From an uncultured Clostridia bacterium (GTDB taxonomy: Bacteria; Bacillota; Clostridia; Oscillospirales; Ruminococcaceae), in NCBI GenBank assembly GCA_947627945.1, contig CANQYC010000008.1, positions 1 through 32,202 on the forward strand: DNA of 32,202 nucleotides. The letters are read 5' to 3'. The notes under the pieces were generated by a model. The model ran no database searches and was not told the DNA's origin. It was given only the letters and a program-made list of their open reading frames with translations. The position numbers and the translations under genes were made by a program. Numbering within the stretch: the first letter of the stretch is position 1; the number at the start of each line of letters is the position of its first letter. Shown here in pieces: positions 848 to 13,538 of the stretch.

Positions 848-2587
848 TTACTTTACCAATCCATTTTCGGAAATATACTGCATAAACGTGTCAATAATAT
901 CGTTGGTACGTCTGATAATATCGTTTTCAGTGAAATCATCATTTGTTTTGGCAAGATTCAGGAGTTCATTGATCCCTGTTCCTTTTTTCTCCTGATTTCT
1001 GCTGTTGATATATCCATTGTAATATTTCTTCTTATCTTCAAAGCGATAGTCGGAGGCACGGATATTGATGCGCTTTTCAAGCATAGCCTTGTTGCCGAGT
1101 GATTCGAGATTTTTTACATCTGTTAATGATTTTTCCTTATCCTGACGATTTTTTGCATAAATATGCTCAATTTCAAATACAGTTTCTAAAGAAAGAAGTC
1201 CCTGAGAATCATCAAGAAAAGCCCACCATGCCAGCATGGCTTTTGTGATCGGACGACCATTATTAAAACTGAAATTGAGGAATGCAGATCTTACAGAGTT
1301 AATGTCAAATTTGAAGTCACTGAAAGCCACAGGATTGTCATTCACAATATTCACCATTTCTGCATATACTGGCGTGCGAAGCATATTGACCCCCGGATTG
1401 ATTACCGCATAAGTCCAGATGAAAGCTGTTATCTTTTCAAGAAAAACAAAAAATGCATCATCATTCAGATCGCCTTCAGCATCACGGTTGTGCAGATAGT
1501 ATACAGATACAAAATAGTACCACATACCATTCGGGGCATAATTCAGAACAAACAATTTCCGCAATATTTTTTCAGAAAATCTGTCTTTACTCTGATTCGA
1601 TACATCATTCCAGAAATCCGCCAGATCACGCAAATTTTCAAACGTTTTCTCATTTTTCAGCAAGGCATAGGAATTTTTCTCATAAAATTTACGGAGAGCT
1701 TCTGTGGTGGAGCTTTTGATTCCTTGTTTTGCCCTTTCATAATACATATACCGGGTGAAAAGTTCATCCATGGGTGTGCCGGAAATTGGATGAAAGATCT
1801 TGTTGCAAAGTTCCTCTAAATCTTTCCACTTTCTGATAAAATCATCTTTTTTGCCCTGTGAGGAAAAGAATTTATAAAACTGTGCCTTGAAAATATCGGA
1901 ATCCGATAACGGCATACCCCTGTCATTCAGCGTTGAGAAAATGCGCAGGGCTGTATCCTGTGATTCCGCTTCAATTGGGAGCAGAATGCAGTTGTTGATA
2001 AGCCTTGCTGGTAGATAGGCAAAATATGTAGGATAGTCATTCAAAAAATCATTGATCTTCTCTTGAAAGAAACGATAATTTACCGCATACTGGCTTTTCA
2101 TATCTTCAGGAGCTTCTCCTGTTTTAAGAATGCTGAGAAATTCGTCTTTCTGTACATCTGTTGCAACTTCAGAGTCTATTTTCAGCTGTGTTTTGATGAT
2201 TGCTCCGAGTTCATCTTTTTTCCATATGCATTTTTCAACTCGCTCCTGTACTAATTTCGTATCTGAATCTTTCATTTTGCCGAAACGTGCATAAAATGCT
2301 CGTAAAAGGAGCATCAGCGTTGTCAGGCGTTGCTGTCCGTCGATGATCTCTTGTTTACCATCATCATTCTTGAATGTCACGATCGGACCGAGAAAGTATT
2401 CATCAGTTGTTCTGAATTTTTCACTATTATCATCAGGGAATGCAAAAGAAAATATATCGTCCCACAGTGTTCTGCATTCTGTTTCCGACCAAGCATAAGG
2501 ACGCTGATAATCCGGGATCAGGAAATCGGTTTTCGGGTCGCTGAAAAGCGATTCGATTGTTTTCTGGTCAATGTTCAACTTTGACAT
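848..2587 (-). CDS. DUF262/DUF1524 protein, GmrSD-like nuclease
   Basis: A 579-residue single-chain protein. The N-terminal DUF262 (ParB/Srx-like) domain shows IPDYQRPYAW at about 24-33 and the signature IIDGQQRLTTL around 81-91. The C-terminal third holds a DUF1524-type His-Me (HNH-like) segment with EIEHIYAKN around His475, followed by the conserved LGNKAML. This domain pair is that of the GmrSD type IV restriction enzymes and many phage-defence proteins, where DUF262 binds or hydrolyses nucleotide and DUF1524 cuts DNA. The start is an ATG preceded by GGAGG seven bases upstream. It stands alone in the remnant of the older guaA island, next to a truncated ATPase. Target specificity, and whether it is modification-dependent, cannot be read from sequence. 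Confidence 0.8.
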   Translation of the reverse strand: MSKLNIDQKTIESLFSDPKTDFLIPDYQRPYAWSETECRTLWDDIFSFAFPDDNSEKFRTTDEYFLGPIVTFKNDDGKQEIIDGQQRLTTLMLLLRAFYARFGKMKDSDTKLVQERVEKCIWKKDELGAIIKTQLKIDSEVATDVQKDEFLSILKTGEAPEDMKSQYAVNYRFFQEKINDFLNDYPTYFAYLPARLINNCILLPIEAESQDTALRIFSTLNDRGMPLSDSDIFKAQFYKFFSSQGKKDDFIRKWKDLEELCNKIFHPISGTPMDELFTRYMYYERAKQGIKSSTTEALRKFYEKNSYALLKNEKTFENLRDLADFWNDVSNQSKDRFSEKILRKLFVLNYAPNGMWYYFVSVYYLHNRDAEGDLNDDAFFVFLEKITAFIWTYAVINPGVNMLRTPVYAEMVNIVNDNPVAFSDFKFDINSVRSAFLNFSFNNGRPITKAMLAWWAFLDDSQGLLSLETVFEIEHIYAKNRQDKEKSLTDVKNLESLGNKAMLEKRINIRASDYRFEDKKKYYNGYINSRNQEKKGTGINELLNLAKTNDDFTENDIIRRTNDIIDTFMQYISENGLVK

Positions 2588-2650
2588 TTATAACACCTCC
2601 ATTACACCCATTTGACATTGTTCCGTAGTCACTTTATATGCTGATGCTAT

Positions 2651-2668
2651 GTTATCAATTTGTTATCA
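2651..2668. repeat. Paired GTTATCA repeats, probable integrase arm sites of older island
   Basis: GTTATCA occurs at 2651-2657 and 2662-2668, 11 bp apart (one helical turn). The two copies start 78 and 67 bp before the core repeat at 2729. The right end of the younger element has GTTGCCA pairs at exactly the same distances from its core. I infer arm-type binding sites for the integrase of the older, now partial element. Confidence 0.6.
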
Positions 2669-2683
2669 CGGGCTTGTACAGTA

Positions 2684-2718
2684 CCCTGAAAACCCCTGTA
2701 ATCAGGGATTTTCAAGGG
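2684..2718. repeat. Imperfect inverted repeat beside attL
   Basis: CCCTGAAAA-C-CCCTG pairs with CAGGG-A-TTTTCA-A-GGG around a 4-nt TAAT loop, giving a stem of about 14 bp with one mismatch and one bulge. It lies between the GTTATCA repeats and the core repeat. It may be a terminator at the old island edge or a structured part of the recombination site. No long T-tract follows. Confidence 0.5.
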
Positions 2719-2728
2719 GCTGTTTATT

Positions 2729-2738
2729 ATTCCCACTC
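2729..2738. other. attL core repeat
   Basis: ATTCCCACTC, identical to the 10 bp at the guaA 3' end (12002-12011). Extending left, TATTATTCCCACTC against TATCATTCCCACTC still matches at 13 of 14 positions. Sequence to the right differs, as expected where attL carries element DNA and attR carries guaA. Confidence 0.7.
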
Positions 2739-2742
2739 GCTC

Positions 2743-2770
2743 CTTGAACTGTAATCTTAACCAGTTCAAG
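2743..2770. repeat. Perfect 9-bp inverted repeat inside attL
   Basis: CTTGAACTG (2743-2751) and CAGTTCAAG (2762-2770) flank a 10-nt spacer just inside the core repeat. The right arm continues into CAAGTTAA, which also occurs at 10838-10845 in the xis promoter region. It may be a binding site for the integrase or excisionase. Confidence 0.4.
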
Positions 2771-2839
2771 TTAAGTTTTATCGCTTGTGGTATCTCAATT
2801 ATCTCAGTTGTCTGTCAGATTTGGAGTATCTGATTTTTT

Positions 2840-2857
2840 GTTGCCATTGTGTTGCCA
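2840..2857. repeat. Paired GTTGCCA repeats, probable left arm sites
   Basis: GTTGCCA at 2840-2846 and 2851-2857 are spaced 11 bp start to start. The same 7-mer with the same spacing occurs at the opposite end of the element (11924 and 11935). This is consistent with arm-type sites bound by the N-terminal domain of the element's integrase. Confidence 0.6.
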
Positions 2858-2867
2858 ATTCACATTT

Positions 2868-3764
2868 CTAAAAGAGCCCCATCATTTTAGCGTTTATTAG
2901 ATCAGCAGTGACATTTGCACCCAAACAAATTAAGTATTCTTTTAAACCTGATAAAGCGGATTTTATTAGTAAGGGACTTTTCTTTTCAATTATTTTCGTC
3001 TCAACTTCATCAACTAATTCGTTTGCATTAGCCATGTCATCTGAGGAAAGTGGTTCGTTTTTTAAGCTTTCTCTTATTTCATCAGCTAATTCAGTACTAA
3101 TATTTGTATTCATTGTAACAGTATTGTTATCTCCACTTGTTATCTGAGTTTTTTCTACATTTCCATTGATAACCGTCCCATAGTAATTATTGATTTGCTG
3201 CGGAATTTCTTTAGCCGCATCTGTTTCAGTTTGATTGAATATCATTTCATCACCTTTTATTCCTTGTTTTTCTAAAGTTAATGTCCATTCTAATAAGCAG
3301 TTTTTGACCTTATCGGTTATTTCATTCAATAAATGGAGACTAAAACTAATAATATAGCTTGTAGGGAATGGTGCAGTGCATATTTTATCAATAACTCGTG
3401 CTGCATCGGTTGAAATATTGATCTGAAAACTATTTGAATCTGATTTTGAACTCAACTCAATAATCGCACTAATCGAATCTTTCAACTTTCGGGTGCAAAT
3501 TGTTTCCTCCATTTTTCCATCCATGAATAATACACGTTTCCAACCATGATAAGGATTAAATGCTTTTAATACTCCCATAATTTGTCTGTATTCAGGTATT
3601 TCTTTCTCATCACATTTATATCCGTTTAGTTCAGAGAGTATCCAACTATCAAATTCTGTAAGATTTAATTTTGATGCTATAATATGTGCTTTACGTAATG
3701 CACTTACTATATCACAATTATTAACTAAAAGATCACGTTGTAGTTCTATAACTACACTGCCCAC
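2868..3764 (-). CDS. AbiTii-like abortive infection protein
   Basis: About 298 residues. The N-terminal 60 residues (IELQRDLL, SALRKAHIIASKL, FDSWILSELNGY) match the AbiTii domain pattern of a short helical segment ending in a WxxxELNGY-type motif, a family linked to abortive phage infection. The middle has no motif I recognise. Around residue 190 comes QINNYYGTVINGNV followed by an SGDNNTV stretch, a low-complexity linker often seen before effector-like C-termini, and then a helical tail. A TTG lies further upstream, but GTG at 3764 is better: AGGGAGG sits eight bases before it. It is the last gene of a probable operon with the methyltransferase and DUF262-HNH genes, only some 40 bp after the latter. 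The assignment rests on the N-terminal pattern. Confidence 0.6.
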   Translation of the reverse strand: MGSVVIELQRDLLVNNCDIVSALRKAHIIASKLNLTEFDSWILSELNGYKCDEKEIPEYRQIMGVLKAFNPYHGWKRVLFMDGKMEETICTRKLKDSISAIIELSSKSDSNSFQINISTDAARVIDKICTAPFPTSYIISFSLHLLNEITDKVKNCLLEWTLTLEKQGIKGDEMIFNQTETDAAKEIPQQINNYYGTVINGNVEKTQITSGDNNTVTMNTNISTELADEIRESLKNEPLSSDDMANANELVDEVETKIIEKKSPLLIKSALSGLKEYLICLGANVTADLINAKMMGLF

Positions 3765-3807
3765 AATAGATTCCTCCCTCAATTTTTCCTGATTTTTGCT
3801 AATTGTG

Positions 3808-4923
3808 TTATTCCTGTCCCGACTTCTTCAAATTACAATCCCTACACAGCATCTGCAAATTCTCCGGAACGGTCTTGCCGCCTGCGTGCCAAGGCTTGAT
3901 GTGATCTCCGTGCATCTGGGCAAACTCATAATGTTTATTACATATCGGACAAATACCTTTCTGACGTTCGTAGGCTTCACGCTTCTGCGTGTCGGAGAAT
4001 ACTCTGATACTAAGATTTCTCTCATCACCGTCAAGGACATATGTGTATATCCCTTTTTTGTTGCCAACATCATCGTCAGCCATAAGCCGTGTGATAGTAG
4101 CTTCAAGTGCATCAGGATCAAGCTCCGTATCCTTGTATATATTATAAAGCAGTCCCCACTCTATACCTTTCATTTCTTTGCGGTATACGGGGAAAATTGT
4201 TTCCACCCACTCAATCACTCGCTTGAAGTAGATCCATATCTGATTAGCATTTGCATCATGCTGGTGAAGTGCCATATACTTTTCAATTGTATCCAAGCCG
4301 TCACGGGCAGCAATCCACCTGATAGCGGTTTCGAGATATTCTTGCCTTATGGGAGAACCGGACACATAGTTCTTTGCCATATTATAGGCAGCACAGGTCG
4401 GCTTTGAGAAATGCAATTTTGCATCTGAAAGCCAAGTGCCTGTATAGGCGGTATTGCGAAGCTCCTGAGCTGTCAGTGGTTTACCTGCTATATTGATGAC
4501 CTTGAACCACTCATGCACTTCCGAGGGCGTACCGTCACATATATAAATATCGAGAACATAGTCATCTATCTGCTTTTGCAGGTCTTTTTCCAAATTAAAG
4601 TAATATTTTTCATCTACTGCAAATGTTCGCTCACTTTCAGCAGCGTAACGGCAGATTGAAATTGTTCTCTGCTGTCCGTCCATAAGTTCATAGCGTCCGT
4701 CATCGGTTTTTGCCCAGTACATTGTGTTCAGCGGAAAGCCTTTCTTGACAGTACGGATTACTTCATCACGCTCTTTCGGTGCATAGACATATTCACGCTG
4801 ATAAGGTGGTCTTACATCGAGCAGTCCGCCATAGGCGACAATGCCCTCTATACCGTCTGTTCCACGTTCTTCATAGCCTTGACACAACTCTGCTACAGAG
4901 ATTTGAATGCGTTCAATTTTCAT
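3808..4923 (-). CDS. DUF262 protein with C-terminal HNH nuclease
   Basis: 371 residues in two parts. The N-terminal DUF262 domain has RPPYQREYVY (about 38-47) and ELMDGQQRTIS (about 78-88), the ParB-like nucleotide-handling signature. The C-terminus is a classical zinc-bound HNH nuclease: CPIC (Cys325, Cys328), GDHIKPW with Asp340-His341, an NLQMLC stretch, and CRDC (Cys360, Cys363). It starts four bases after the stop of the upstream methyltransferase, which indicates translational coupling, and lies just before the AbiTii-like gene. The pairing suggests the nuclease of a restriction-modification-like system whose DNA is protected by the neighbouring adenine methyltransferase. It differs from the GmrSD-like protein at 848-2587, which has DUF1524 instead of HNH. 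Confidence 0.8.
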   Translation of the reverse strand: MKIERIQISVAELCQGYEERGTDGIEGIVAYGGLLDVRPPYQREYVYAPKERDEVIRTVKKGFPLNTMYWAKTDDGRYELMDGQQRTISICRYAAESERTFAVDEKYYFNLEKDLQKQIDDYVLDIYICDGTPSEVHEWFKVINIAGKPLTAQELRNTAYTGTWLSDAKLHFSKPTCAAYNMAKNYVSGSPIRQEYLETAIRWIAARDGLDTIEKYMALHQHDANANQIWIYFKRVIEWVETIFPVYRKEMKGIEWGLLYNIYKDTELDPDALEATITRLMADDDVGNKKGIYTYVLDGDERNLSIRVFSDTQKREAYERQKGICPICNKHYEFAQMHGDHIKPWHAGGKTVPENLQMLCRDCNLKKSGQE

Positions 4924-4927
4924 TTTA

Positions 4928-5974
4928 TCACTCTTTTCTTTTTCTTATAGCTATTCTCTTATATTTTGCTTTGCCATTTATTACAGGTTTTGCAAGGTCA
5001 AGTTCGTTTGTAACACTACCACCATCAAATTTACCGAGAATTTCAAATTGTTCATCACAATGTGATGCAAGATAAGTAATTGGTACACCCATTATCTTAT
5101 CAGTATCACAAGGTATTTCTGCTACAGTTTCAACGTGAATAGCATCATAGGTATCATATGTGGGGTACATCTCTGGCGTATAGTGTTTATAGAGGTCAAG
5201 TGGTTGGTGACGAATATCTATATCCATATTGGTAAACCAGCATATATTTCCGAGTCTTCGCCATTTTTGCCCGTCCTCGTCCTGCTTGTAGTCTGTATTC
5301 TTTGATTCATAATAATCGGGTACTTTGAACCAGAAATGCCCGGCATTATATCCAAGCCACATTTTATTTTCCCTGAAATAATGAAAAATTTCCTTAAATG
5401 TGATATGATTCATATTTCCAAGAACAAGAAATAACTTTCCACTTTCGGCAAGCAGTGGGATATACTCTTTCATCAGAGAAAACGGTGGATTTGTTACAAC
5501 AATATCGCATTCATTCAGTAGTTCAATACACTCTTCAGAACGAAAGTCGCCGTCCCCATCCAAAAGCGTGAGAGCGTTCTTTTGGTTTCTCAGCAGATAT
5601 TCCACATCGCTCAGATCAACTGTCGAATCACCGTTGGCATCTATAACTTCTGTAATTTCTATTTTATAGGGCTTTTTTCCGTTTCCTGATGAATATGTGA
5701 TTTCCTCATCGTCAAACAAAGAAAGCTGAGTATAAGTGATAGGAGAAGTTGCATAACAAGTTGTAATCAGCTTTTTAAGTCCAAGAGCATTGAAATTCAA
5801 AGCAAAATACTTGAAAAAATTGCTCTCATAGGGGTCATCACAGTTGCAAAGAACAATTTTTCCTTTGAAATACCTTCTGTAATGCCGCAGTTCTTCTTCA
5901 ATTGTGGATAGCTGCGTGTAAAATTCGTCAGTCTTTCCTGTTTTTGACATATGTAAATTGCTGTTGCCTGCCAT
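4928..5974 (-). CDS. EcoRI-family adenine-specific DNA methyltransferase
   Basis: 348 residues of the M.EcoRI-like family (adenine N6 methylation). Visible family marks are the N-terminal KTDEFYTQ, LCNCDDP (42-48) with SNFFKYF, GDGDFRS (140-146), and the catalytic TNPPFS (161-166) followed by LFLVLGNMNH. Between 112 and 123 lies DANGDSTVDLSD, which reads like a calcium-binding EF-hand/dockerin loop; I believe similar acidic loops occur in relatives. The ATG start has AGGAGG six bases upstream and a consensus promoter at 6012-6040. It is the first gene of the operon, so modification would be made before the nuclease. The recognition sequence cannot be inferred. Confidence 0.88.
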   Translation of the reverse strand: MAGNSNLHMSKTGKTDEFYTQLSTIEEELRHYRRYFKGKIVLCNCDDPYESNFFKYFALNFNALGLKKLITTCYATSPITYTQLSLFDDEEITYSSGNGKKPYKIEITEVIDANGDSTVDLSDVEYLLRNQKNALTLLDGDGDFRSEECIELLNECDIVVTNPPFSLMKEYIPLLAESGKLFLVLGNMNHITFKEIFHYFRENKMWLGYNAGHFWFKVPDYYESKNTDYKQDEDGQKWRRLGNICWFTNMDIDIRHQPLDLYKHYTPEMYPTYDTYDAIHVETVAEIPCDTDKIMGVPITYLASHCDEQFEILGKFDGGSVTNELDLAKPVINGKAKYKRIAIRKRKE

Positions 5975-6237: not shown

Positions 6238-7529
6238 TTATTCCAGTCCCCACGATTTTTTCTTTTTGGTGGTAGACTGCTGTTGTGTTTCCTGTTTTTG
6301 TTGACTGTGAACGTACTCCTGAACCTGTTTGATTTCAGCGTACTTCTGCGGTTCAAAGCGTTTCAGTAAGTCAATAAACTCTGTCAGACTGTCAACCGTC
6401 CTCTGCAAATCTGAATTATTACGAGTAAGTTCGTTAATTCTTCCGGATCTCTCCATACCTCTTTGCCATAATTCACTTCGTTCTTTTTCGCATTTGTCGT
6501 ACTGCTCACGCAGAGCATAAACCGTATCGGTTGCCTTGTCTGCTCTTGAATTGACCTTTTTGACAAGTTTGCAAAGTTTTTGCACATTGGCAATAATGTC
6601 GTCCTTGTACTTCATAATAGACAGTTTACTTTTCAGCATTTCAGTGAGTTCAGTAATGATTTCAGCACATTTATTCTTTAACTTTTCGTCCTTTTCCACA
6701 TCGGGCAAATAATTGAGAATTTCATTGACTTTTGCGACTTTGTCCGTAATCTGCCCGTCAAGATTTTGGCATTCAGATTTTTTCTGTTCAATTTCTGATT
6801 CTGCTCTATCATTTTCTGTTTTCAGTGCATCGGCTTTCTGCCGTTGCTCTTTGTATTCAGCGACTTCCAATGTTCCTCTGGATTTTTCCGGTGCAAGCGG
6901 TTCAATACCGTGTTCACGGCAAATCTGATTCAGCACTTCCACCTCAGCAGAACGCCAACGGGCAATTGCCTGTTTTCCCTCACCAAATCCCATTTCTTTC
7001 AGGGCTTGTGCAATGCCGTTTTGGGTATCTTGTCCACGCTTGTAATGCCCGATGGGAATGTAGTCGATGTGCAGGTGCGGAGTTGCCTCGTCCATATGCA
7101 AAACCGCATTGAAAACATAGAAGTTCGGATTGCGATTTTGGAATCCGTTCATATACTCTTTCAGGCATTCTGCAACAAGCTGAAAATCTTCCGTGCCGTA
7201 ACCTGAATCTTCCATTCTGCCGATTTGCACAACGTCCTCATAAAAACTTTTTCTTTTGTCAGCAGCAGTACGGACATTGTTGCACGGTTTCACACCGAAA
7301 AGATGTTCATAATAACTGCCGTGAATTTTTCGATCATTGCGTTTCTGTCCGGCATTGTAACGCTCCGTTGATTCTGCAAAAAGCTGTTCATATGCCTCAC
7401 CTATCGGCTGACACACGAAAGTAATATTTTCGTGTGTGCGGAACACATCAACATTGTCCGCAATGAACTTCCGGTTGTTGTGAGTAATCGAGCCTTTGCC
7501 CTGCCCGAATGAAACTCTTTTTTTTTCAT
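6238..7529 (-). CDS. MobV-family (Pre/Mob) relaxase, frameshifted at an A9 run
   Basis: The continuous frame from 7446 down encodes FRTHENITFVC and the MobV motif LHMDEATPHLHID, with the metal-binding HxxxxxxHxH histidines, then a long coiled-coil, Gln- and Lys-rich tail. The conserved start of the family (RVSFGQGKGSITHNNRKF) is present immediately upstream in the same frame but has no in-frame start codon, because a TGA precedes it. The plausible start is ATG at 7529, with AAAGG about 10 bases upstream; it is followed by nine A residues (7518-7526) and is in the wrong frame by one base. A -1 slip or a tenth A gives MKKKRVSFGQ and a protein of about 430 residues. It nicks oriT for conjugative mobilization. 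Expression therefore depends on slippage, or else the gene is inactivated. Confidence 0.85.
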
Positions 7530-7549
7530 TTTTTCAAGACCTTTCTTTA

Positions 7550-7811
7550 ATTGGATTTTCTTCTTTCTCTCTACGAAATCCAATCAGTTTTTACATCGAC
7601 AACAACTCCTTTCAAGACAGCAAAGATGAGCATTGCTAACCGCAAACGGATCGTTTCCGAATGATGACGGAGCATCACGGAAACAAAGCTGCGGAGCAGC
7701 AAATTACAAGCGAAGTGTCGCTTGTAACGCCATAGTACTTGTGATAGGGAATAAATCCCACATCACAAGTACATGGCGCCCTGCGGGGCAATCGGCTGAC
7801 GGAGCAGCCGA
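7550..7811. other. Palindrome-rich region, candidate oriT
   Basis: Non-coding DNA just upstream of the MobV gene, where MobV elements carry oriT. It contains a series of inverted repeats: ATTGGATTT/AAATCCAAT (7550-7584); GCTGC/GCAGC (7688-7700); TTACAAGCGA/TCGCTTGTAA with a 4-nt loop (7704-7727); a large hairpin CGCCAT-A-GTACTTGTGAT pairing with ATCACAAGTAC-ATGGCG (7728-7778), with an inner GGGA/TCCC stem; and TCGGCTG/CAGCCGA (7792-7811). I cannot identify a nick site. Confidence 0.55.
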
Positions 7812-7898
7812 AAAAATTTCAAAATCACCATTCAAAAAATGCTGAAAATCCGCATTACATTTTTGAAAAATCAACATTCTTTCCATAAAATTCTTCCC

Positions 7899-7972
7899 GT
7901 GACGATCCGTGTCGATGGTGACGGTCTTTTTGAGTCCTCACAAACATCGTCACGACCGTCACACATCGTCAC
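7899..7972. repeat. GTGACG iteron-like repeats, candidate replication origin
   Basis: GTGACGATC (7899-7907) and GTGACGGTC (7918-7926), with a related GTGTCGATG between them, face CATCGTCAC (7945-7953), GACCGTCAC (7954-7962) and CATCGTCAC (7964-7972) on the other strand. The 9-10 bp periodicity and inverted arrangement resemble iterons. They lie right at the 3' end of the RepA-like ATPase gene, between it and the oriT-like hairpins. Confidence 0.5.
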
Positions 7973-7974
7973 GC

Positions 7975-9198
7975 TTAATGCTTTTCTGCTTTATCAGTAT
8001 CCAATTCAGGTTCAACAATGATAGGATGATTGGCATCATAGCGGAGTGCGATTTTTCTTCCTTTGTGACTTCTGGAATTGCTGTACTGCACAAAATAAAG
8101 ATTGTACAGCTTTCCGGCATTGACATTCAGTTTCAATGACAGCGTATTCGGCTTGATGTCAAGCTCCAGTTTTTCGATAAGTTCGGTAGCCGTTCCCTCC
8201 CAAGCCGGATTGTCAGCATTGATGAAATTTCCGATTGCTTCAAGCACAGGTTCAGGCGGTTCAGCGTAATTTGGCGACTGTTCTCCCTTGAAATCCCAGC
8301 AGAGAGTTTCCTTGTTTCGGAAAATCGTGAATTTCCTGTCCGCCTGATCTCTGCCTGAAACTTCAATTGTTGCATCGCCGTCAGTGCGTTTTGATTTGTA
8401 CATAATGAAAGCTCCGTCAGCCGCACCGAGCAGACCGTTTGTCCCCGAAATCTTGTCGAAATTGTCATCAGACTTCTGCTTGCGGGTATGGTGTACCAGT
8501 ATCAGACAGATACCTGTTTTATCTGCAAATGCTTTCAGTCCGGCGATAATGTCATAATCTCTTGCATAACTATAAGTATCGCCCTCAGTTTCACGCACTT
8601 TCTGCAAGGTATCAATAATCACCAAACTGGTATCAGGATGATTTTCGAGGAATGCACCAAGCTGTTCAATTAAGCCGTCGTTCAGAGATTTTGAAGCAAC
8701 TGAAAAGAAAAGATTTGATGCTGTTTCCGTGCCAAACATTCTGTAAAGACGCTCCTGCAATCGGCGGTAATCGTCCTCTAAAGCGAGGTACAGCACCGTA
8801 CCCTTGCGGACGGAATAGTTCCACATCGGCGTTCCGGAACTGACATGATAGGCAATCTGGGCCATCATGAAACTTTTTCCGACTTTCGGTGAACCAACGA
8901 ACAGATATGTTCCCGGATAGAGAAAATGCTCAATAATTGGCGGTTTACCGGAATAAACCATTTCATACAGTTCCAGCATCGAAACCGTCTGCATAAATCC
9001 GGGAGAGTTTTCATACTCCGTCTTTGCTTGTGCCTGCATTTCCTGCTCGTACTCCTGTTGTGCAAGGAAAATTTCTTCTTTTGAGGAGTTGAAATTCTCC
9101 CCGTAATCTGGTATAATAGTAGGTGTTAAATCAGGTGACTGCCCGACCTCTGCGCCAACAGAGGTCATAGGGGCGGTCACTTTTCTTTCTTCGGTCAT
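7975..9198 (-). CDS. RepA-like AAA family ATPase
   Basis: 407 residues. Walker A is GSPKVGKS (102-109), followed by ALEDDYRRL (about 139-147), Walker B LVIIDTL (192-198) and LILVHHTRK. This is the RecA-fold AAA_25/RepA helicase pattern seen in plasmid replication and mobilizable elements. An Asp/Glu-rich leader of about 70 residues precedes the ATPase core, and the C-terminal 100 residues look like a winged-helix-type DNA-binding part. The ATG overlaps the stop of the preceding gene (ATGA), with AAGGAG upstream. Its position between the MobC-like gene and the oriT/iteron region suggests a role in replication of the excised circle or in processing during transfer. A truncated second copy lies at 60-757. 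Confidence 0.8.
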   Translation of the reverse strand: MTEERKVTAPMTSVGAEVGQSPDLTPTIIPDYGENFNSSKEEIFLAQQEYEQEMQAQAKTEYENSPGFMQTVSMLELYEMVYSGKPPIIEHFLYPGTYLFVGSPKVGKSFMMAQIAYHVSSGTPMWNYSVRKGTVLYLALEDDYRRLQERLYRMFGTETASNLFFSVASKSLNDGLIEQLGAFLENHPDTSLVIIDTLQKVRETEGDTYSYARDYDIIAGLKAFADKTGICLILVHHTRKQKSDDNFDKISGTNGLLGAADGAFIMYKSKRTDGDATIEVSGRDQADRKFTIFRNKETLCWDFKGEQSPNYAEPPEPVLEAIGNFINADNPAWEGTATELIEKLELDIKPNTLSLKLNVNAGKLYNLYFVQYSNSRSHKGRKIALRYDANHPIIVEPELDTDKAEKH

Positions 9199-11008: not shown

Positions 11009-11491
11009 ATGGCAATTGGTGAAAGAATCAGGTTTATCCGAAACCTGAGAGGTATGACACAGAAATTTTTAGGCTTGCAGGTCGGGTTTTCGGAACGGAC
11101 GGCTGATATTCGTATGGCACAGTATGAATCCGGTTCAAGAGTACCCAAAGCGGAGCTCGTGGCACTGCTTGCCAATGCACTCGATGTGTCGACTGAGGCT
11201 CTGAATGTGCCAAATATTGACAGCTATACAGGACTGATGCACACATTATTTGCGTTAGAGGACTTGTATGGATTCAAAATTGACCGTCTGGACGGCGAGA
11301 TCTGCATTCGCATTAACAGACAAAACGGCTCAAATTTTGCAAAGATGACAGGTCTGCTTGAACCGTGGGAAGAAATGGCACAGAAATATCGCAACGGGGA
11401 AATCAGCCGTGAGGAGTACGACCGTTGGAGGTACAACTACCCAAAGTCAGAGGTGGAACGGAATGAAGATGCTCGCAAAGAAAATCACTAA
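11009..11491 (+). CDS. XRE-family transcriptional regulator
   Basis: 160 residues. The N-terminal 60 form a Cro/C1-type helix-turn-helix (IGERIRFIRNLRGMTQKFLG, then RMAQYESGSRVPKAELVALLA). The C-terminal 100 residues are mixed helix with an acidic/basic tail (EISREEYDRWRYNYPK), often found in element-borne Clostridia regulators. I chose the ATG at 11009 because GGAGG lies eight bases upstream. It is divergent from xis-int with its own promoter, so it probably represses or tunes excision and transfer genes. The ligand or signal is unknown. Confidence 0.85.
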   Translation: MAIGERIRFIRNLRGMTQKFLGLQVGFSERTADIRMAQYESGSRVPKAELVALLANALDVSTEALNVPNIDSYTGLMHTLFALEDLYGFKIDRLDGEICIRINRQNGSNFAKMTGLLEPWEEMAQKYRNGEISREEYDRWRYNYPKSEVERNEDARKENH

Positions 11492-11540
11492 TCTGTGAAT
11501 AATACTAAAAATATGAATACTTATTTGGATAAAATGTCAA

Positions 11541-11569
11541 TTGACAAATTTTGAGGTTTTCTGTATAAT
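11541..11569 (+). promoter_or_regulatory. Promoter of the small island-edge gene
   Basis: TTGACA (11541-11546), a 17-bp spacer and TATAAT (11564-11569), about 45 bp before the start at 11613. Confidence 0.8.
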
Positions 11570-11612
11570 GTAACTGTAAGTGTGTGTCTTAGTCTGCAAA
11601 GGAGGAATACAT

Positions 11613-11816
11613 ATGAAGAAGAATGAAATTGTACCAATTGAGGATAGCAGCTCATTCCCGGATGTTTTGCCTAAAAGACGTCGTGGATTCTTTGAAGAAG
11701 GAACTGATAAATTAGGACGTCCTTTTGAAAAGAAACTTGATGAAGATGGGCTATATACTAAAAAAGAAATCCTTAAAGATGGAACAAGGAAGTTAACAAT
11801 AAAGAAGAAGCCATAA
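11613..11816 (+). CDS. Small charged protein of unknown function
   Basis: 67 residues, rich in Lys, Asp and Glu: it begins MKKNEIVPIEDSSSFPDVLP, has KRRRGFFEEGTDKLGRPFEK in the middle and ends in KKP. It has no membrane segment or known motif. The ATG has AAAGGAGG seven bases upstream, a consensus promoter before it and a hairpin terminator after it, so it is very probably expressed. It is the last gene before the right end of the element and stands apart from the mobilization operon. I do not recognise the family. Antirestriction, inhibitor or regulator roles are conceivable but unsupported. Confidence 0.7.
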   Translation: MKKNEIVPIEDSSSFPDVLPKRRRGFFEEGTDKLGRPFEKKLDEDGLYTKKEILKDGTRKLTIKKKP

Positions 11817-11839
11817 TCCGAGACATAATATATACAAAA

Positions 11840-11884
11840 AGAGTTACCCGATTCAAATGCGAATCAGGTAGCTCTTATCTTTTC
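11840..11884. terminator. Bidirectional terminator at the island edge
   Basis: AGAGTTACCCGATTC (11840-11854) pairs with GAATCAGGTAGCTCT (11861-11875) over a 6-nt loop, with one mismatch and one G-U pair. TATCTTTT follows on the plus strand; on the minus strand the stem is followed by TTTTTG. It ends the small gene and could also stop transcripts leaving guaA, whose native downstream region was displaced by the insertion. Confidence 0.75.
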
Positions 11885-11903
11885 AGACAAATATTTTCAT
11901 ACT

Positions 11904-11941
11904 GTTGCCGATGATCGAGAACTGTTGCCAAATCGTTGCCA
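11904..11941. repeat. GTTGCC repeats, probable right arm sites
   Basis: GTTGCCG at 11904, GTTGCCA at 11924 and GTTGCCA at 11935. The last two are 11 bp apart and start 78 and 67 bp before the core repeat at 12002. They match the GTTGCCA pair near the left end (2840, 2851). Confidence 0.65.
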
Positions 11942-11959
11942 CTGTTATCATGATAACAG
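11942..11959. repeat. Perfect 18-bp palindrome in the right attachment region
   Basis: CTGTTATCATGATAACAG equals its own reverse complement. It sits directly beside the GTTGCCA repeats and contains GTTATCA in both orientations, the heptamer used by the older island's right end. It is probably a protein-binding site. Confidence 0.65.
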
Positions 11960-11999
11960 CAAAATCAACGTATTTATGCCGTTTCAGCAAGCATTTTTA

Positions 12000-13538
12000 T
12001 CATTCCCACTCAATCGTCGCCGGAGGTTTCGTCGTAACATCATACACCACCCGGTTGACCGACTTTACCTCTCCCACGATCCGGGATGCGGTCACGGCGA
12101 GTACCTCATAGGGGATCTGTGCAAAATCCGCTGTCATAAAATCACTGGTGGTCACCGCCCGCAGGGCAACGGTGTAATCATATGTCCGGAAGTCGCCCAT
12201 GACGCCGACCGAGCGCATATTCGTAAGCACCGCAAAATACTGGTTGATGTCCTTGTCCAGTCCAGCCTTTGCGATCTCCTCACGGAAAATATAGTCCGCA
12301 TCCTGCAGGATCTCCAGCTTCTCCTCCGTGATCTCCCCGATAATCCGGATCGCAAGCCCCGGTCCCGGGAACGGCTGCCGCCATACCAGTGCCGGATGCA
12401 GCCCCAGCTCTGTTCCGAGCTTGCGCACTTCATCCTTGAACAGCATCCGCAGCGGCTCGATGATCTCCTTGAAATTCACATGATCCGGCAGACCGCCGAC
12501 ATTGTGATGGCTCTTGATAACTGCCGCATCTCCCAGTCCGCTCTCGACCACATCCGGGTAGATCGTGCCCTGTACCAGAAAATCTACCTGTCCCAGTTTT
12601 TTTGCCTCCTGCTCAAATACCCGGATGAACTCCTCGCCGATCGTCTTGCGCTTTGTCTCCGGATCAGAAACGCCCTGCAGCTTTGCCATGAACTGTTCTT
12701 TTGCATTCACACGGATAAAGCGCATACCGCTGTCCCGGAACGCCGCTTCGACCTCGTCGCCCTCATTCTTGCGCAGAAAACCATGATCCACAAAAATACA
12801 TGTGAGCTGCTCCCCGACTGCCTTTGCCAGCAGTGCCGCAGCGACAGAGCTGTCCACGCCGCCTGACAGCGCAAGCAGCACCTTGCCGTCCCCGACCTTT
12901 TCCCGGATCTCTGCAATGGCGGTCTGTGCATAGCCTGCCATCGTCCAGTCACCGACACAGCCGCAGACATTTTTCAGGAAGCTGTCGATCATCCCCAGCC
13001 CCGCAAAGGTATGGTTCACCTCCGGATGGAACTGCACCCCGTAGAACTTCCGTGCAGGATCTTCAAAAGCCGCCGCCGGGCAGTCCGCCGTATGCGCCGT
13101 GACCGTAAATCCTTCCGGCAGCTCCGAGACATAGTCCGTATGGCTCATCCAGCTCGTTGCCGTCTCCGGCAGGTGGATGCCGCCGAACAGCACACTGGAA
13201 CGGTCATAGTGCGTCTCCGTCTTGCCATATTCTGAATTGACGCAGGAAGCCACCTTGCCGCCGAGGGTATATGCCATCAGCTGGCAGCCATAGCAGATGC
13301 CCAGGATCGGGATGCCCATGTCAAAGATCTCCCTGCCGATATGCGGAGAGCGTTCGTCATAGACGCTGTTGGGACCTCCTGTGAAGATGATGCCGGCAGG
13401 GGAGAGCGTGCGCAGCTCTTCGAGAGGGGTCTGATAACTTTTGATCTCGCAGTAAACGCCGCATTCCCGCACACGCCGTGCGATGAGCTGGTTGTACTGT
13501 CCGCCGAAATCAAGTACGATAACAAGCTGATGATCCAT
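12000..13538 (-). CDS. guaA: GMP synthase (glutamine-hydrolysing)
   Basis: 512 residues, full length. The N-terminal class I glutamine amidotransferase has Cys82 (GICYGC), His171 and Glu173 (QFHPEV). It is followed by the ATP-pyrophosphatase P-loop SGGVDSS (225-231) and the C-terminal dimerisation domain ending in the typical [10 protein letters not shown]. It converts XMP to GMP with glutamine and ATP. ATG 13538 has AAGGAG seven bases upstream; the longer frame to 13595 overlaps pyrB. It lies 19 bp after pyrB and is probably co-transcribed from the asnB promoter. The 3' end is the insertion target of the adjacent islands. Confidence 0.97.
12002..12011. other. attR core within the guaA 3' end
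   Basis: ATTCCCACTC covers the end of the guaA stop and the codons for its last three residues (Glu-Trp-Glu). Integration here rebuilds an intact guaA end, so the gene is not damaged. Confidence 0.75.

Follow-up and report, generated by a model that had tools for sequence, protein, structure and literature searches.

How is a relaxase gene decoded when its start codon lies one base out of frame? This question is raised by a gut bacterium's MobV-type (Mob_Pre) relaxase gene in the window, by which we mean the whole 32,202-nucleotide stretch of DNA that was analysed. The features of the start region and the gene are the following, all on the minus strand.

7540-7547, minus strand: Shine-Dalgarno-like AAGAAAGG, ending 10 nt before the ATG; a similar AAGAAAGG is found in relatives
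7527-7529, minus strand: ATG start codon, one base out of phase with the relaxase frame and equivalent to the conserved ATG of relatives
7518-7526, minus strand: A9 homopolymer directly 3' of the ATG, lacking one base for the phase found in relatives
7471-7518, minus strand: conserved N-terminal motif RVSFGQGKGSITHNNR, which carries the invariant His and Arg and precedes the first standard start codon of the relaxase frame
7444-7446, minus strand: GTG 7446, the first standard start codon in the relaxase frame; a start here excludes motif I
7404-7529, minus strand: 42-codon open reading frame in phase with the ATG (MKKKEFHSGRAK...SCVSR), without relaxase sequence; its stop is at 7401-7403
6238-7533, minus strand: MobV-type (Mob_Pre) relaxase frame, from stop to stop, with no internal lesion

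The minus strand reads ATG AAAAAAAAA GAG from 7529 to 7515, with exactly nine A directly 3' of the ATG, and the start region as a whole has the layout AAGAAAGG-N10-ATG-A9-GAGTTTCATTC. Translation from this ATG gives MKKKEFHSGRAK... and meets a stop after 42 codons. The relaxase frame opens after a TGA at 7536-7534, reads KNEKKRVSFGQGKGSITHNNR... and closes at the stop at 6238; it is uninterrupted but offset by one base from the ATG at 7529-7527. Upstream of GTG 7446 this frame is devoid of any ATG, GTG or TTG, and initiation at that GTG would drop the invariant His and Arg of motif I from the relaxase. Our reading of the strand agreed with the original prediction in its coordinates and phase, the A9 run, the Shine-Dalgarno-like sequence before the ATG and the placement of the invariant N-terminal segment in the relaxase frame. 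The predicted restored N-terminus, MKKKRVSFGQ, has the same length as MKEKRISFGQ or MKQKRISFGQ of relatives, which confirms the frame arithmetic. On this comparison we consider a base to be truly missing relative to the family, rather than the start to have been mis-chosen.

The start regions of relatives drawn from genus, family and GTDB genomes were compared, and 52 of them were distinct. An in-frame start (ATG, GTG or TTG) lies four to five codons before the conserved Ile/Val-Ser in 51 of these 52 relatives (exactly five codons in 47, four in the other 4), the sole exception being L045. The usual form is ATG-AAR-NNN-AAA-AGA, and the nearest full-length relatives carry the interrupted tracts ATGAAAGAAAAAAGA or ATGAAACAGAAAAGA. 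The window start has the layout of these relatives, with the third codon now AAA and one base absent. Comparison of A-run length, which the original prediction had proposed as a check, gave a longest run of at most six in relatives other than L045 (seven), against nine in the window. Because 51 of the 52 relatives start in frame and the exception is a decayed relic, frameshifted decoding is not a conserved trait of the family. The original prediction had left open expression control by slippage, phase variation, a disabling mutation or an indel error, and had named homologues with an alternative in-frame start as a refutation. Such homologues are the rule here, which speaks strongly against a conserved or programmed frameshift and leaves a lineage-specific one-base loss (genuine, and possibly leaky or reversible) or a consensus error. 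The A9 allele is known from one assembly only: near-identical start regions were absent from DNA searches of the genus, family and order, closer alleles were not found in IMG/VR (by a protein scan and two DNA patterns), and plasmid records held only relatives of less than 60% identity.

L045 is the nearest relative having a start region and shares with the window a 14-nt offset from ATG to GTT. It retains the interrupting G, which leaves a run of A7, and its relaxase gene bears multiple lesions, consistent with a decayed relic. Windowed identity to our sequence is 95-97% over codons 41-100; over codons 1-20 it is 85-87%, and there L045 is equally near the in-frame L039/L051 class and the window, a pattern which indicates a mosaic. 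The ratio dN/dS between window and L045 is approximately 0.09 over 135 codons. Shared and independent loss of the base require similar numbers of changes; because L045 is both mosaic and wrecked, we lean towards independent loss. The offset could in principle predate the split of window and L045, with the coding sequence still under purifying selection at that time. It is highly improbable that the offset was inherited throughout a subclade of window and L045 in which the relaxase is under purifying selection and decoded solely via slippage at its own start; if true, poly-A slippage would set a low relaxase dose.

The relaxase protein matches Pfam Mob_Pre (PF01076) with 50.5 bits against a gathering cut-off of 25.5. 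The NCBIfam MobV equivalog NF041497 scores 33.5 bits, below its cut-off of 100, and the protein is therefore best described as a divergent Mob_Pre relative that falls outside the MobV equivalog in the NCBI sense. The window relaxase has the His and Arg of THNNR as well as the H-x-D-E-x2-P-H-L-H core of HMDEATPHLH, residues that do not vary among 24 aligned sequences. A profile of relatives aligned weakly (E = 0.015) with MobM of pMV158, the prototype of the MobV (Mob_Pre) relaxases found on plasmids and IMEs. This weak alignment puts HNNR over HNER (GAFKHNER), whose His we take to be the DNA-cutting histidine of MobM, and the HxDE-PHxH motifs coincide (HLDESTPHMH in MobM). MobM-type relaxases are known to cut DNA via a histidine (PMC5863519). 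A single-sequence search of the PDB with the relaxase gave no match. The protein thus shares with the prototype the Mob_Pre domain, the N-terminal HN-x-R and HxDE-x2-PHLH, but belongs to a divergent subfamily under the NCBIfam cut-off and has its start out of frame.

The element that carries the relaxase adjoins the 3' end of guaA. Upstream of the relaxase lie genes for a tyrosine integrase, an ICEBs1-Xis-like protein, a NikA-like mobilization protein and an AAA_25 ATPase; downstream are EcoRI-type methylase, GmrSD-like and AbiTii genes. This gene set (integrase, Xis-like, NikA-like, AAA and Mob_Pre) beside guaA would fit an ordinary mobilizable-type element integrated there, its far end lying off the contig. 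The junction with guaA falls within 11491-12020 (guaA stop near 12000) and is a likely integration site; a second copy of the 19-nt guaA 3' end, as would mark the other element end, is absent from the assembly, which holds one copy only. Besides the AAA_25 ATPase gene at 7975-9198 there is a second copy at 60-722, inside which the contig begins. Over 300 nt this copy shares 92% identity with 8078-8377, and the repeat suggests tandem elements or a duplicated module at which the assembly broke. The element's cargo at 848-5974 resembles a defence or restriction-modification cluster, with GmrSD_N/GmrSD_C, AbiTii, GmrSD_N with HNH, and an EcoRI-type adenine methylase. Between the ATPase and relaxase genes, 7610-7970 is very hairpin-rich (RNA fold z = -9.6, with an arm pair at approximately 7730-7775) and is a candidate oriT or leader structure. 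The leader at 7590-7612 contains a strong Shine-Dalgarno, AAAGGAG, followed by TTGTTGTCGATGTAA, which may be a start-stop upstream open reading frame of minimal size. An Rfam search of the contig gave no match.

Past its start, the relaxase frame shows no lesion. Its dN/dS against relatives is approximately 0.05-0.3 in most alignments that allowed a calculation, and this part of the gene looks to be under selection at the protein level. With the remaining frame intact and dN/dS low, the loss would therefore be recent, leaky (through transcript slippage), reversible, or a consensus error. Independent lesions were observed elsewhere in the family, with at least four other damaged relaxase copies among the relatives: besides L045, the relative carried by the isolate Ruminococcus bicirculans 80/3 (L039:4986-6290) is frameshifted near codon 125, L046 lacks both its start and its C-terminal part, and an internal deletion in L123 takes out the PHLH motif. 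Relaxase loss thus appears to be recurrent in the family.

The T9/A9 run at 7518-7526 is the sole homopolymer of eight or more in the 32.2 kb contig, where a dinucleotide model predicts approximately 1.4 A/T runs of at least eight and 0.33 of at least nine. ATG followed by A9 occurs once in the 1.9 Mb assembly. Inspection of open reading frames placed eight of the 10 distinct A/T runs of at least nine in this assembly in intergenic DNA; of the remaining two, one is the A9 site itself and the other lies in frame towards the 3' end of an RsmD-like gene. For this genome, so long a run at the start of a gene is unusual; it fits a mutable tract that is normally removed by selection.

We consider it probable that a lineage-specific event removed one base from a derived poly-A tract, which stands at the 5' end of the MobV-type relaxase gene of an integrated mobilizable-type element; such a change would most likely be an ordinary slippage-type mutation of a known kind, not a new control system. 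The ancestral family form would have been MK(E/Q/Y)KR encoded with an interrupted A tract. In the window lineage the interrupting base would have mutated to A, creating a pure run that then dropped one A, in an order that we infer. The start codon would now direct a 42-codon nonsense peptide, probably leaving the relaxase silent or weakly expressed. By analogy, some leakage is plausible, with a few full-length molecules arising through addition of one A by RNA polymerase (the likeliest route) or a ribosomal -1 slip, and the same replication slippage could revert the tract, which would make it an accidental phase switch.

Precedents exist for the mutational pathway and for leaky rescue. In Listeria monocytogenes inlA, A2GA4 and A7 are in frame whereas A6 is frameshifted and truncated after 8 residues, and reversion from A6 to A7 was measured at approximately 5.5e-7 (PMC2831843). 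As in our case, the poly-A lies at the very start of the gene and occurs as an interrupted tract, as a pure tract in frame and as a tract one base short, the last of which truncates the product after a few residues; the inlA alleles, however, are found in many isolates and their reversion was measured, whereas ours comes from one assembly and a mobile-element gene, with an inferred intermediate. In transcript slippage at A/T runs, insertions predominate and increase with run length (PMC5574713), and rescue by E. coli RNA polymerase is undetectable below eight A (PMC6260861). The tssM genes of Citrobacter (A11) and Yersinia (A9) have pure A tracts of similar length whose frame can be restored by an added A, and the Yersinia tssM3 A9 tract gives 15-25% frameshifting (PMC4256274). 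For tssM both products were shown and are used, whereas for the window relaxase a rescued product is a prediction from sequence, and the offset is not conserved.

A consensus error, with an in-frame tract and a normal relaxase in the cell, is a possible but distinctly less likely reading. The assembly, 81% complete and in 137 contigs, resembles the MAGs among the relatives; indels are the error class typical of homopolymers, and the intact, apparently selected remainder of the gene is what this explanation expects. Yet other long genes on the contig are open and without frameshifts, and A/T runs of 10, 15 and 21 are present in the assembly, so there is no systematic collapse of long runs. Indels in short reads at nine or ten A are also uncommon.

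Maintained recoding, in which slippage during transcription or a -1 slip of the ribosome on A-AAA-AAA would deliberately keep relaxase expression low, we regard as improbable. The slippery tract is valid and in the right phase, a -1 slip on it or one added transcript A would restore the frame, and tight relaxase dosage would make sense; the offset common to L045 and the low dN/dS over their shared codons also fit. Against this, ordinary in-frame starts elsewhere in the family mean that the offset is not conserved among intact homologues, and L045 is a wrecked relic whose run keeps the interrupting G and whose first 20 codons are no closer to the window than to the in-frame L039/L051 class. Folding of the RNA 3' of the A9 tract revealed no stimulatory structure relative to shuffles (z = 0.15), and a full-text literature search for relaxases with programmed frameshifting returned no paper; programmed -1 frameshifting is thus without positive support. 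Unusual in-frame initiation is extremely unlikely. It could use the ATT of S-ITH-NNR, which would keep the invariant His and Arg, or the internal GTG 7446, which is in the relaxase frame at the cost of motif I. ATT start codons are very rare, a convincing Shine-Dalgarno at normal distance is absent for such starts, and all relatives but one have a standard in-frame start further upstream.

Read as a one-base loss in a derived poly-A tract, the locus carries modest weight as one more 5'-end homopolymer frameshift, here in the transfer gene of a mobile element. For annotation it serves as a warning: from the assembly alone, the relaxase should neither be called functional nor be given a start at GTG 7446. 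It also illustrates the ease with which an integrated element may lose or toggle its mobility.
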